From the NCBI GenBank assembly GCA_005223185.1, contig NJBN01000007.1, forward strand, positions 1-64,000: a DNA stretch of 64,000 nt, given 5' to 3'. Position numbers and translations under genes: made by a program. The notes under the pieces are model-generated. The model did no database searches. It was not told the origin of the DNA and saw only the letters and a list, made by a program, of their open reading frames with translations. The number at the start of each line of letters is the position of its first letter. Position 1 is the first letter of the stretch. This DNA comes from a candidate division LCP-89 bacterium B3_LCP. Its GTDB lineage: Bacteria; Electryoneota; B3-LCP. Below are positions 2,225-55,375 of this stretch, piece by piece.

Positions 2225-2354
2225 TCCTGGTTTTTTCCTGACAGCGTCAGGTCACATCCGTCGGCTGACGGACAGGACCTGACGCAACGGGAACTTTTTG
2301 AGCGTCCCACTTGAGTGGGACAGCATAAATTAGCCCGGAAATTTATTTCCGGGC
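2225..2354 (+). repeat. Modular palindromic intergenic repeat, copy 1
   Basis: The 420-nt gap between flagellin and the next gene holds a run of short palindromes: an outer pair CCTGACAGCGTCAGG / GACCTGACGC, CCGTCGGCTGACGG, GTCCCAC-TTGA-GTGGGAC followed by AGCAT, and arms GCCCGG/CCGGGC around AAATTTATTT (2333-2354). The related unit TCCGAAGGAGTCCTATG follows at about 2391-2407. The same modules in the same order occur near 14.3, 19.7, 34.1 and 55.3 kb. No coding sequence is seen. Confidence 0.75.
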
Positions 2355-2427
2355 GTTGTGAGGCTGTTTAGACAAATGATTCTCATTCTATCCGAAGGAG
2401 TCCTATGAACAGAGTGACATTAACAAA

Positions 2428-14107: not shown

Positions 14108-14182
14108 TAAATTCTCTTGCATTCTTTTTAAAGTTGATCTAAATTTGGTTTCGTAAAGATTATTCACTATTTGGAGAGGTAG

Positions 14183-14432
14183 CGCGGGGGCTTGCTCCCG
14201 CCATGTAAATTCGTGCCGCTGACTCCCCGCAGTCAGCGGCTATAACAACCGCAGAGTACGGGGACTCTGCGGCACTGGAATAGCCTCTCACCGCCCGGAA
14301 ATGTCCGAAGGACTCCTATGGAGAATTTCCAGGCTAGTCTTATGCTGTCCCGCTAAAGCGGGACGCTTAAAAACCTTTACGTCCGTCAGATGACGGACAG
14401 AAATTGAATAGCCCGGGAATTCATTCCCGGGT
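14183..14432 (+). repeat. Modular palindromic intergenic repeat, copy 2 (longest)
   Basis: This array fills most of the 0.5-kb gap between moxR and rlmN. In order it contains a GCGGGGG-CTTG-CTCCCGC hairpin, GCTGACT...AGTCAGC, GCAGAGT...ACTCTGC, the unit TCCGAAGGACTCCTATGG with AATTTCCAGGCTA, TGTCCCGC-TAAA-GCGGGACG, CCGTCAGATGACGG, and arms GCCCGG/CCGGGT around GAATTCATTC. Every element is a hairpin or near-palindrome, and each has a counterpart at another site in the window. Nothing coding is seen. Confidence 0.78.
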
Positions 14433-14524
14433 AGGGGATTGGTAACAGAACCTTCAGTCCGGTACTGATTATCGGATGACTCGAGCCCAGGGTATGTTAC
14501 GAAATCACAAGGAGTAATCTAACC

Positions 14525-19606: not shown

Positions 19607-19746
19607 TGCTGCCAACTCCCTGCAGTTGGCAGCACTGCCTCAGAATCAATTCTGAGGCTTAAACTGATTCAAGAACACTGAAGTGATCTTCTTAGCGTCC
19701 TACTTTAGTGGGACAGCATTTTTATAGCTCGGGAATTCATTCCCAT
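19607..19746 (+). repeat. Modular palindromic intergenic repeat, copy 3
   Basis: Modules in order: TGCCAACT...AGTTGGCA, GCCTCAGAATCAATTCTGAGGC, GTCCTAC-TTTA-GTGGGAC then AGCAT, and a decayed last unit TCGGGAATTCATTCCCATG whose right arm no longer pairs. It ends 11 nt before the 3' end of the tmRNA gene. Confidence 0.72.
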
Positions 19747-19757
19747 GTCTAACTTTG

Positions 19758-20114
19758 TGGAGACGGCGGGAATCGAACCCGCGTCCGAAATAGTGACCGA
19801 AGGACCCGCTACAGGCTTAGTCGCTGTTTAGTTCTCGCTAACCATCAAATCCAGCGACAGATCAGATGGGAAGCCAGCCTCGGAATTCTCACGTCAGGCA
19901 TTGAGGCGCTGCTTGACGCCAGCCCATCATTATGACGCCCGCATCCCAACTCGATGGGCAAGAATCGGGTCGGACGTAGCCGCTTCTTTATTAAGCAGCT
20001 AAGGCATAGCCGTGATTATCGGCATTTGTGATTGTGGCGGGTTTATACGGGGTCACGCCATCCCCGACCTGCTGATCCAGCTTCCTCCTATCCCGTCGAA
20101 ACCAAGTCGTCCCC
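19758..20114 (-). ncRNA. ssrA: Transfer-messenger RNA (tmRNA)
   Basis: The 5' end reads GGGGACGACTTGGTTTCGAC and the 3' end GCGGGTTCGATTCCCGCCGT followed by CTCCA, the two halves of the tRNA-like domain. GGGGACG pairs with CGTCTCC as the acceptor stem. The CCA tail is not encoded (CAA follows the discriminator A). The mRNA part ends in TTA GCT GCT TAA TAA. Read back in frame, the tag is probably ATITNADNHGYALAA, ending in the ALAA degron recognised by ClpXP-type proteases. The resume codon (GCC) is inferred. tmRNA with SmpB rescues stalled ribosomes. Length 357 nt is normal. Confidence 0.95.
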
Positions 20115-21794: not shown

Positions 21795-21975
21795 TCATTC
21801 CGGACAAGACACATGAATAAATTCATGAGCCCAATTTTTAGGTAAAGTCACTGAAGCGACTGGTGAAGTTACAAGATATCAGCATTGGTTTCAACCAATT
21901 AACGCAAAGTTTGGGCATAGGATTTTCCCGAAGGGACTCCCATGGAGTAATCCTATGGCAATTGACGCAGTCCAC
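21795..21975. repeat. Decayed palindromic intergenic repeat region
   Basis: The gap contains CATGAATAAATTCATG, TTGGTTTCAACCAA and the unit CCCGAAGGGACTCCCATGG with GGATT/AATCC arms on either side, all related to modules in the larger arrays but more degenerate. No coding sequence is visible. Confidence 0.5.
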
Positions 21976-33809: not shown

Positions 33810-33863
33810 GCGCAATTTATTCATAAGCAAAACCCGTTCCTCTTCGGTTAACTTCGTTTTTTG

Positions 33864-34190
33864 TGCTGCTGACTCCCTGTAGTCAGTAGCTAATATCGCA
33901 GCCGAGTGCAGGGACTCTACGGCACGGATAGTAACAAAAAAGACTCTCATTGACTTTAGTCAATTGAATTTAAAGCGTGAGCACTGGAACTTCAGTCCAG
34001 TGCCGAAAGCGCAGAGTTCTCCCCCAATCTCATTTTCATTCATGAAGCGTTGCTTTGAAAGAAGAGATTTCGTAGATTGTAAGGGTAAACAGATTTTTAC
34101 GGAGCAGTCCGTCGGCTGACGGACGAAAACTCATTAAGCGTCCCACTTCAGTGGGACAGCATTAATTAGCGAGGAAATTCATTTCCTCGC
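33864..34190 (+). repeat. Modular palindromic intergenic repeat, copy 4
   Basis: This array fills the 470-nt gap before uvrA. Modules in order: GCTGACT...AGTCAGTAGC, a GCA...GACTCTACGGC unit, GCACTGG-AACTTCAGT-CCAGTGC (33981-34003), CCGTCGGCTGACGG, GTCCCAC-TTCA-GTGGGAC then AGCAT, and arms GCGAGG/CCTCGC around AAATTCATTT. The same order is found in copy 2. No coding sequence seen. Confidence 0.76.
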
Positions 34191-34216
34191 GGTATAAGAT
34201 TACTATAATCTACACC

Positions 34217-37084
34217 ATGACCAATCCACCTTTTTCCGACTCCATAGTAATCAAGGGCGCTCGAGAGCATAACCTGAAAAACATAGATCTGACTCTCCCC
34301 CGTAATAAGCTGATAGTTATTACCGGCATTTCCGGTTCAGGGAAGTCGTCGTTAGCCTTTGATACTCTATACGCCGAAGGTCAACGCCGCTACGTGGAAT
34401 CGCTATCCGCCTATGCCCGCCAATTCTTAGGTCTAATGGAAAAACCGGACGTAGATTTCATAGAGGGTCTTTCACCTGCTATTTCCATAGAACAGAAATC
34501 CACTCACAGAAATCCCCGTTCCACAGTAGCAACCGTTACGGAAATTTATGACTATTTGCGTCTTCTCTATGCTCGTATAGGCAAAGCATACTGCTACGAG
34601 TGCGGTCGCCCTATAGAGAAACAATCCGTACAAAACATCGTTGATCGAGTGTTAGAATTGGAATCCGGTACTCGTTTCGTAGTATTGGCTCCCATAGTTC
34701 GAGGGAGAAAAGGCGAATATCGCGAAATTTTAAGCGGGCTGAAGCGGGACGGTTACTTAAGGGTACGGATTGATGGTAAAACTCGTTCGCTGGATGAAAC
34801 GATCTCTCTGGACAAAAACAAGAAGCATAATATAGATGTAGTGATTGACCGCCTGGCAGTAGAGGGCGATCTGCGCATACGCTTGACCGATTCAGTGGAA
34901 ACCGCTCTTCGCCTGTCGTCAGGATTGGTTATCGTGGACGTCCAGGGGGGTTCAGAAATACTATTTTCCGAGCATTACAACTGCCCTGATTGCGGCATCA
35001 GTTATGAAGAATTAGAACCCCGCAGTTTCTCTTTCAACAGCCCCTATGGCGCTTGTTCCACCTGTTCCGGTTTGGGATTTACCCTGGAAATTGATCCCCA
35101 GAGGATTGTTCCCGATCCTTTCATCTCGGTCAGAAATGGAGCTATCGCTACTTTAAGCAACTGGAACGAAACCATGTGGCTCCGCATGCTGGAAACCGTA
35201 GCGGATCATTTCAACTTCTCACTGAGCGGTCCTTTTTCTAAGCTTGCCAAAAAAGATCAGGATATCTGTCTTTACGGTTCCGGAAAAGAAGAGATACGTT
35301 TTAAACTGATACACAAAGGCGGACGCGGTTCCTGGGAACACACAGGCGTGTGGGAAGGGGTTATTCCTAACCTGAAAAGGCGCTACCGCCAGACAACTTC
35401 CACCGGCATTCGGGAATGGATAGAAGGCTTCATGAGCGCTCTCCCCTGCCCTGGATGCAAAGGCGGGCGTCTGAAACCCGAAGCCCTCTCTGTGAAGGTC
35501 GCTGATTATAATATCTCAAACCTTACTGAACTCTCCATAAAGGATTCATTACGCTTTTTCCAGAACATAAAGCTTAGTTCAATAGAGCAGAAGATCTCCC
35601 AGCAGATTTTAAAAGAGATCAACGCCCGCTTGCAGTTCTTAGTTGACGTCGGTTTGGATTATTTAACCTTGGACCGTTCCGCTGGCACGATTTCCGGTGG
35701 AGAAGCACAGCGCATTCGTTTAGCCACTCAAATCGGTTCACAACTAGTCGGTGTGCTATACATCTTAGATGAGCCATCCATCGGCTTGCACCAGCGTGAT
35801 AACAAGCGCCTGATCGAAACTCTGAAACATCTTCGCGATCAGGGTAATACCATCATCGTGGTGGAACACGACCACGAAATGATTAATTCCGCGGATATTA
35901 TCGTTGACTTAGGACCAGGCGCTGGCAGACATGGTGGACAAGTGGTATCTTTCGGAAGACCCTCAGAGGTAGCAGCAGATGACAAATCCATAACAGGGCG
36001 CTTTCTATCAGGAAAGGAACAGATAGAGATCCCACCAAAACGCCGCAAGGGAAATAAGAAGAGGCTTTCCCTGTTCGGAGCAACCGGAAATAACCTGAAA
36101 TCCGTGAATCTGCATCTATCTTTGGGCAGTTTCGTATGCGTCACCGGTGTCTCCGGGTCAGGGAAGTCCACACTACTGAACGAAACGTTGTACAAAGCCC
36201 TCTGTCGAAATATATATAAATCCAAGGATAAACCGCTGCCTTTCAAACGCCTGACTGGCGTGGAATTCGTTGATAAGGTGATCAACATTGACCAATCACC
36301 CATCGGGCGTACCCCTCGTTCTAACCCTGCAACTTACACCGGCCTCTTCACTCCTATCCGAGACCTCTTTTCAGAGTTGAAAGAATCCAAAAAACGCGGT
36401 TATAAACCCGGACGGTTCAGCTTCAATGTTAAAGGTGGTCGCTGCGAAGCCTGCCATGGTGACGGTATCATAAAGATTGAAATGCACTTCTTGCCCGATG
36501 TGTACATCCCCTGTGAAGTATGCAAAAGCAAGCGCTACAACCGCGAAACTCTAGAGATTAAATATCGCGGCAAATCCATCGCCGACGTCCTGGATATGAC
36601 GGCGGAAGAGGCGCTGGAGTTCTTCCATGCTCATCCGGTCATACGAAGGAAATTAGAGACTATCGTCAGAGTGGGTCTGGGGTACATTCATTTAGGTCAG
36701 CAGGCAACGACTTTATCTGGCGGTGAGGCTCAGCGGGTCAAATTGTCAACTGAGCTATCAAAAATCCAGACCGGCAACACGCTCTACCTGCTGGACGAAC
36801 CGACAACCGGTCTCCACTTTGCTGATATAAGACTTCTGTTGTCAGTCCTCCATGAATTGGTGGAAAAGGGTAATACCGTATTAGTGATAGAACACAACTT
36901 AGATGTGATAAAGACTGCTGATTATATCGTAGATCTGGGTCCGGAAGGTGGCGATGAAGGTGGTCGTATAATTGCACGGGGAACGCCTGAAAGTTTAGCT
37001 AAGTCTGAGCTTTCATATACGGGCAGGTTCCTTCGTCAGCAGCTTCACATTGGAAAACCTGCTGAAGAGGAATTGATAAATTAA
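34217..37084 (+). CDS. uvrA: Excinuclease ABC subunit A
   Basis: A 955-residue nucleotide-excision-repair ATPase that finds DNA lesions with UvrB. Two ABC modules are present: Walker [15 protein letters not shown] and [14 protein letters not shown], signatures [15 protein letters not shown] and [14 protein letters not shown], Walker [14 protein letters not shown] and [13 protein letters not shown]. Zinc cysteine pairs CPDCG and CSTC plus CEACHGDG...[10 protein letters not shown] are seen. Full length, with normal UvrA architecture. The ATG has no clear ribosome site. It sits directly downstream of repeat copy 4. Confidence 0.97.
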
Positions 37085-49561: not shown

Positions 49562-49627
49562 CTGAATAGTTGATCGAATAGGTCAATCAAAAAGGGGGCT
49601 GTCCCAAAAATCGACTAGTCATCCTGT

Positions 49628-49740
49628 CCATAGGACTCCTTCGGAGAGCTCGCTGAAAGCGAAGCGAAGAATCTCTTGTTCTTCTGTGAATCCCGTAGTC
49701 GGGGTCGCCTGCGACCATGGTGTCCCTGACCCCGACGAGA
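49628..49740. repeat. Intergenic repeat with CGTAGTCGGGGTCGCCTGC unit
   Basis: Contains GTCCATAGGACTCCTTCGG (reverse orientation of the CCGAAGGA unit), a GCTCGCTGAAAGCGAAGC segment with AAGAATCTC, then CGTAGTCGGGGTCGCCTGC ... TGGTGTCCCTGACCCCGAC (49694-49736), itself an imperfect hairpin. The last unit recurs at 54513-54555 (inside a gene) and 55056-55097. Confidence 0.72.
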
Positions 49741-55228: not shown

Positions 55229-55367
55229 CGCCCGAAAATGTCCGATGGACTCCTATGGAAAATTTCCAGGCTAATTTTATGCTGTCCCGCAAAGCGGGAC
55301 GAAAATAACTTGGAGCGTTCTACTTCAGTAGGACTGCATTGCATTAGTCCGGGAATTTATTCCCGGA
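55229..55367 (+). repeat. Modular palindromic intergenic repeat, copy 5
   Basis: Modules: TGTCCGATGGACTCCTATGG with AATTTCCAGGCTA, TGTCCCGC-AAA-GCGGGACG, GTTCTAC-TTCA-GTAGGAC then TGCAT, and arms TCCGGG/CCCGGA around AATTTATT. It lies between the 3' end of the DUF362 gene and the preceding repeat; no coding sequence is seen in 55129-55375. Confidence 0.75.
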
Positions 55368-55375
55368 TGACACCC

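Follow-up and report, generated by a model that had tools for sequence, protein, structure and literature searches.

The five hairpin arrays found in a 64,000-nucleotide stretch of DNA from the candidate division LCP-89 bacterium B3_LCP (the whole stretch analysed, referred to as the window) are very probably accumulated non-autonomous elements of the REP/REPIN type, mobilised in single-stranded form by Y1 (HUH-tyrosine) transposases whose genes are located in other parts of the genome. The main family, named U, is apparently moved by a TnpA of subclass 1.2, a movement that we infer from the sequences. An earlier note on this DNA could name no repeat class with such modules. The arrays do belong to a known class, the architecture being that of the REP/REPIN-RAYT systems. 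The system is of a known kind, and what is new is the subclass pairing together with the two-hairpin end: the specific pairing of two-hairpin ends with TnpA subclass 1.2 appears to be undescribed in the literature searched.

Hairpin Arrays and Conservation of Pairing

All the stems that had been quoted for the five arrays were found at or near their claimed positions when the sequences were checked. The five arrays (986 nt), all of them located between ORFs as determined from the ORF list, include 16 non-overlapping perfect hairpins with stems of at least 7 bp. Markov shuffles (n = 500) had 0.39 on average and never more than 3. Outside the arrays, the window has 0.65 such hairpins per kb. Table 1 shows the parts of the arrays. 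The earlier note had treated them as one repeat family with the same hairpins in the same order and orientation. Instead, at least four unrelated hairpin families contribute to these mosaic arrays. The common orientation holds for the right-hand U unit, which is always on the + strand in the window, but genome-wide both orientations are found, with an inverted pair as the basic object. Whole U inverted pairs are present at 14292-14433 and 55230-55369; three arrays kept the right U unit, and two of them retain the inner hairpin of the left unit too. The REP-A pair at 14213..14275 folds into two hairpins (z -6.35). A kissing loop between these hairpins was considered and rejected as trivial, because the second is an inverted copy of the first, which makes their loops necessarily complementary.

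Table 1. Location and composition of the elements identified in the window. R2, covariance model of U.
Feature	Position	Strand	Composition and evidence
Inner hairpin TCCGTC/GACGGA, truncated left U unit	2257..2272	-	Sequence; same hairpin in left units L010 and L013
U unit	2301..2355	+	Inner GTCCCAC/GTGGGAC, linker, TAG foot, outer GCCCGGAAAT/ATTTCCGGGC; R2 match, 69.0 bits
REP-B (GTAG + GCGGGGGCTTGCTCCCGC hairpin)	14179..14201	+	Same hairpin flanks RAYT gene G000:C4:172793-173107
REP-A inverted pair (GTGCCG...CTCCCCG... + inverted copy)	14213..14275		Flanks RAYT gene G000:C4:145979-146212
Left U unit of inverted pair	14292..14367	-	R2, 62.3 bits; 76 nt (56 + 20), tip insert in outer hairpin
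20-bp tip insert TCCGAAGGACTCCTATGGAG	14304..14323	+	Between AATG and AATT; pattern match, reversed-pattern control 0
Right U unit of inverted pair	14378..14433	+	10 bp from left unit; R2, 71.7 bits
REP-A-like hairpin TGCTGCCAACT/AGTTGGCAGCA	19607..19634	+	Sequence, hairpin count
Another two-hairpin unit	19637..19690	-	Outer GCCTCAGAAT/ATTCTGAGGC, inner around CACTGAAGTG; second copy in L034
U unit	19694..19749	+	R2, 67.7 bits; end 5 bp from 3' end of tmRNA gene (19755-20114, -)
REP-A inverted pair	33863..33925		Sequence
Two-hairpin unit (ATTGACTTTAGTCAAT + GTGA foot + GCACTGGAACTTCAGTCCAGTGC)	33949..34003	+	Also flanks third subclass-1.2-like tnpA (L022/L236, G000:C12:418317)
Inner hairpin, truncated left U unit	34107..34124	-	Sequence, hairpin count
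U unit	34137..34191	+	R2, 65.4 bits; followed after about 26 bp by a 955-aa ORF at 34217, the N-terminus of which may be UvrA-like
Left U unit with tip-insert variant	55230..55301	-	Insert pattern at 55241-55259, one mismatch
Right U unit of inverted pair	55314..55369	+	R2, 69.9 bits
Other tip inserts in the window	21926-21947, 49627-49646		With those at 14304-14323 and 55241-55259, mostly within hairpin tips
Decayed tip insert	2391-2409		

The compensatory stem changes that had been proposed were borne out for both hairpins of U. In the outer hairpin (26 distinct sequences from this genome and relatives) 95.4% of the cells are paired, two-sided changes occur at 9 of the 10 pairs, and the covariation score is 0.539 versus 0.203 +/- 0.021 when shuffled. 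In the inner hairpin (21 sequences) 98.6% of the cells are paired and the score is 0.490 versus 0.156. None of 500 shuffles reached either score, a tally that is not a P-value, the sequences being related by descent. As a control, pairing in slid registers falls to 21-50%. The TAG and the TY centre are kept across genomes while the outer hairpins covary. The idea that base pairing is selected, in RNA or in single-stranded DNA, is consistent with pairing that is kept as the stems change, in many copies throughout the genome and in related genera; between the two options the evidence favours single-stranded DNA as the paired state, because the hairpins are linked to a TnpA-Y1 gene.

The U Unit and Its Distribution

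U begins with an inner hairpin GTCCnnn/nnnGGAC and a linker of about 12 nt, after which the NTAG foot leads into an outer hairpin of 10 bp with a 2-nt loop, TY. The covariance model R2 was built with both hairpins given as structure, and 150 candidates per genome were scored, which makes all copy counts lower bounds. R2 recovered at least 64 copies in this genome (3.79 Mb), with scores up to 82.8 bits, and at least 12-68 copies per genus in five further genera of the family. Outside the family, at least one copy was found in another family of the phylum and at least four in another phylum. No U copy was found among the 150 candidates scored in each of two control genomes. In the 50 matches listed for this genome, all 13 pairs of close neighbours have the minus unit first and the plus unit second, 8-10 bp apart. 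Since every such pair is divergent at this distance, the actual object is an inverted pair of 120-140 bp with the arrangement outer'-inner'-spacer-inner-outer. Although ORF coverage is 87%, 26 of 28 sampled outer hairpins are located outside ORFs.

The foot in this genome is NTAG, mostly TTAG, ATAG or CTAG, while GTAG is found in part of the relatives. The GT[AG]G foot directly 5' of the hairpin that characterizes REPs is thus not strictly kept by U in this genome, and U is REP-like rather than a canonical GTAG REP. A tail near GGTGTAAGGCTATTTA is common to about half of the GCAT-type U units beyond the outer hairpin (e.g., window 2356-2380, L007, L008, L010, L012 and L016), and may mark a subfamily or belong to the element. 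In another genus, the inner hairpin loops of U units (L271 G002:C81, L272 G002:C8 and L273 G002:C19) include a pair of mini-hairpins side by side, unrelated in sequence, such as CCACGAAGTGG CCACTGCGTGG, the tip being three-armed.

Transposase Genes Flanked by the Same Hairpins

A profile search of the genome produced ten Y1_Tnp matches, and comparison of their flanks assigned most hairpin families to a gene; a cognate gene was identified for four hairpin families of the arrays. The intact, IS200-like tnpA gene at G000:C16:80732-81169 is bracketed by U(-) at 80664-80719 and U(+) at 81174-81229, 4-12 bp away, and tnpA C15:70738-71160 has U on either side in inverted orientation. The two U-associated proteins score 82.3 and 86.0 bits and pass the NCBIfam IS200 cut-off of 55, and the C16 protein matches the IS608 TnpA by sequence. 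Both, as well as most homologues, carry DHVH, WQ and Y-x-x-x-Q-x-x-HH; a third gene of this genome (L236) has EHVH where others have DHVH. A survey of the transposases gives Y-x-x-x-Q-x-x-HH, DH[IV]H and WQ for TnpA-Y1 subclass 1.2 (Quentin et al. 2018, PMC6006769), and the U-associated TnpA proteins fit this subclass as judged by motifs. The three tnpA genes of this genome are divergent (100, 56 and 32% identity to the query), and the multiple near-identical full-length copies that characterize an IS were not found in it.

The proteins encoded at C4:145979 (REP-A) and C4:172793 (REP-B) score 99.7 and 104.5 bits against the REP_Tyr_transpos cut-off of 80. A cognate transposase of the two-hairpin unit at 19637..19690 was sought in this genome and not found. 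Other Y1 genes that have palindromes of their own (GTAGTCGGGGTC..., GGCCGGGACAGCTT...) were observed at G000:C18:283068-285358 (L025, L028) and C14:106453 (L026); copies of the first are present in the window at 49695 and 55057.

Homologues of tnpA were identified in 15 of the 99 genomes searched, this one included. Their flanks have the same plan with other stems, such as TAGCCCAGCCTT-TC-AAGGCTGGG and TAGCCCACGAAT-TT-ATTCGTGGG. The 200-bp flanks of 25 genes from 14 genomes include 103 hairpins versus 17.1 in shuffles. Hairpins are found on both sides in 19 of the 25 genes, with at least two per side in 13, and the remaining 6 are without hairpins on one or both sides. In 13 of the 25, the inverted repeat that spans the gene exceeds all 40 shuffles in length. 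The hairpin sequence varies between genera along with the transposase.

A Short Insert in Hairpin Tips

A 20-bp insert, TCCRNAGGACTCCTNYGGAG, was found in the tips of U and of unrelated hairpins, between TG and A (TG/A). At least seven U hairpins of this genome and several unrelated hairpin families are interrupted by TCCGAAGGACTCCTATGGAG or its variants. Its form, 20-22 bp in length, is TCC-RNA-GGA-C-TCC-TNY-GGA-G, with two TCC...GGA mini-hairpins. The insert alone folds poorly (z -0.54), and in context one quasi-palindrome, TCCNNAGG-ACT-CCTNNGGA, is preferred; as modelled, the fold could be either the two mini-hairpins or the single quasi-palindrome. Related 22-nt forms with 4-bp stems are located at similar sites, e.g., ATTGACTG|TCCCATAGGGATCCCTTCGGGA|AAGTCAAT. 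The pattern TCCRNAGGACTCCTNYGGAG has 24 matches in this genome and 26 in one member of the family, with 0 matches to the reversed-pattern control throughout, and none of the 37 other genomes tested from the phylum has it. In Pedobacter borealis it is present in 83 copies. When 84,980 species genomes were scanned, at least 111 stretches with the pattern were detected and, among the matches listed, all are titled Bacteroidota, Ignavibacteria, Chlorobi or candidate division LCP-89. In 109 distinct contexts, the insert is preceded by G in 94% and followed by A or G in 92%, and pairing between its two flanks is more extensive than in any of 500 partner shuffles (mean run 2.44, shuffle maximum 2.17). 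No description of the insert was found in the literature searched.

The possibility that the insert is the scar of a larger element was rejected: among the matches listed, with about 0.86 Mb sampled, broken outer half-sites had the short insert only or unrelated sequence. It is conceivable, if rather doubtful, that the insert is itself a mobile element with a preference for TG/A sites in single-stranded hairpin tips, that an enzyme acting on single-stranded DNA moves it in trans, and that it has spread across Bacteroidota and relatives. This mobility is offered as a hypothesis because many Pedobacter copies may have multiplied simply along with their REP. If mobile, the insert would rank among the smallest mobile elements known, and it needs an explanation either way. 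In L119, a broken tRNA-Ser-like fragment (2399-2472) has the insert at the anticodon-loop position and another copy at the 5' end. This copy is a broken fragment, whereas the intact tRNA-Ser found by ARAGORN starts at 2638, and it does not point to a functional intron.

Proposed Mechanism and Alternative Explanations

The U inverted pair would derive by internal deletion from an IS200-like unit with a subclass 1.2 tnpA between the same two ends. TnpA would most likely recognise the hairpin together with its NTAG foot on one strand of a region exposed as single-stranded DNA, such as the lagging-strand template, and would then cut and rejoin near the foot. This mode of recognition is proposed by analogy with tested REP systems, in which TnpA, assisted by the foot, cleaves the single-stranded REP at a dinucleotide next to the hairpin (PMC8266576). 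Because fold, foot and loop would be read and not the letters of the stem, the stems could drift with compensatory changes and each transposase lineage would have its own. Present-day mobility, cleavage and the choice of strand are parts of the model that we infer. No empty site or recent insertion of U was found in the genomes compared, which belong to other genera.

Structured RNA elements such as terminators, 3'-UTR stabilisers or regulatory RNAs, selected at the level of the transcript, could also have covarying stems and intergenic copies, and one U copy is located 5 bp past the 3' terminus of tmRNA, while another follows the end of an ORF by a few bp. This explanation is nonetheless very unlikely. 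The arrays at 14183-14432 and 33864-34190 lie between divergent genes, a location not predicted by a terminator or 3'-UTR role. In addition, the copies are inverted pairs at a fixed spacing of 8-10 bp, a U pair also brackets tnpA, and the Rfam search of the window matched tmRNA alone, with no catalogued RNA family at the arrays. That every family is specific to its own Y1 gene, which it flanks within tens of bases, and that the hairpins change between genera together with the transposase make it very improbable that the arrays are DNA sites maintained by the host (for gyrase, a nucleoid protein or recombination) with no transposon origin. The copies are intergenic, numerous and structured, as such sites could be, and REPs in other bacteria are bound by host proteins (PMC2817692). 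Finally, some array modules are single or truncated, but the idea that hairpins formed by chance, or unrelated repeats in decay, were lumped together by eye has next to no likelihood and is refuted by the hairpin count (16 versus 0.39 expected) and by the R2 genome search, with matches up to 82.8 bits in this genome and none among the candidates scored in the two control genomes.

Comparison with Known Systems

As REP/REPIN-type elements, the arrays share with the REP/REPIN-RAYT systems of E. coli, Pseudomonas and Stenotrophomonas the short intergenic palindromes with a foot tetranucleotide, the inverted pairs, a cognate Y1 transposase flanked by its own palindromes, and several families per genome. 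U differs in that each end has two hairpins, in the 2-nt loop and perfect 10-bp stem of the outer one, and in its NTAG foot; its TnpA is of the IS200-like subclass 1.2 instead of a class 2 RAYT. Motifs, length (about 146-151 aa) and low copy number are as described for subclass 1.2, for which the survey lists no REPs and generally no terminal hairpins; here, in contrast, most genes are flanked by hairpins on both sides and the family in this genome has dispersed copies (PMC6006769). TIRtrons are Y1 transposase genes between long inverted repeats, with double palindromic TIRs, and in two Pseudomonas these TIRs have a degenerate GTAG unit joined to another stem-loop and occur in hundreds of copies (Di Nocera et al. 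2013, PMC3733652). The long inverted repeats that flank a Y1 gene are a common feature with U, but TIRYTs were later tentatively equated with subclass 2.1, and both their sequences and the host group are different. The IS200/IS605 elements IS608 and ISDra2 also have an HUH-Y1 TnpA, to which the U-associated proteins are related through the IS608 enzyme, and subterminal hairpins at either end. Unlike them, U has two hairpins per end, its ends are inverted repeats of each other, and its non-autonomous copies far outnumber the gene.

The role of subclass 1.2 had been left open, as no repeats had been found with it, and the subclass now gains candidate substrates. The two-hairpin ends accompany it in several genera and in more than one phylum, and these candidate substrates make recognition testable with short oligonucleotides. 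The approximately ten Y1 genes in one genome, most of them with their own palindrome family, are a natural set for the study of co-evolution between transposase and stem.
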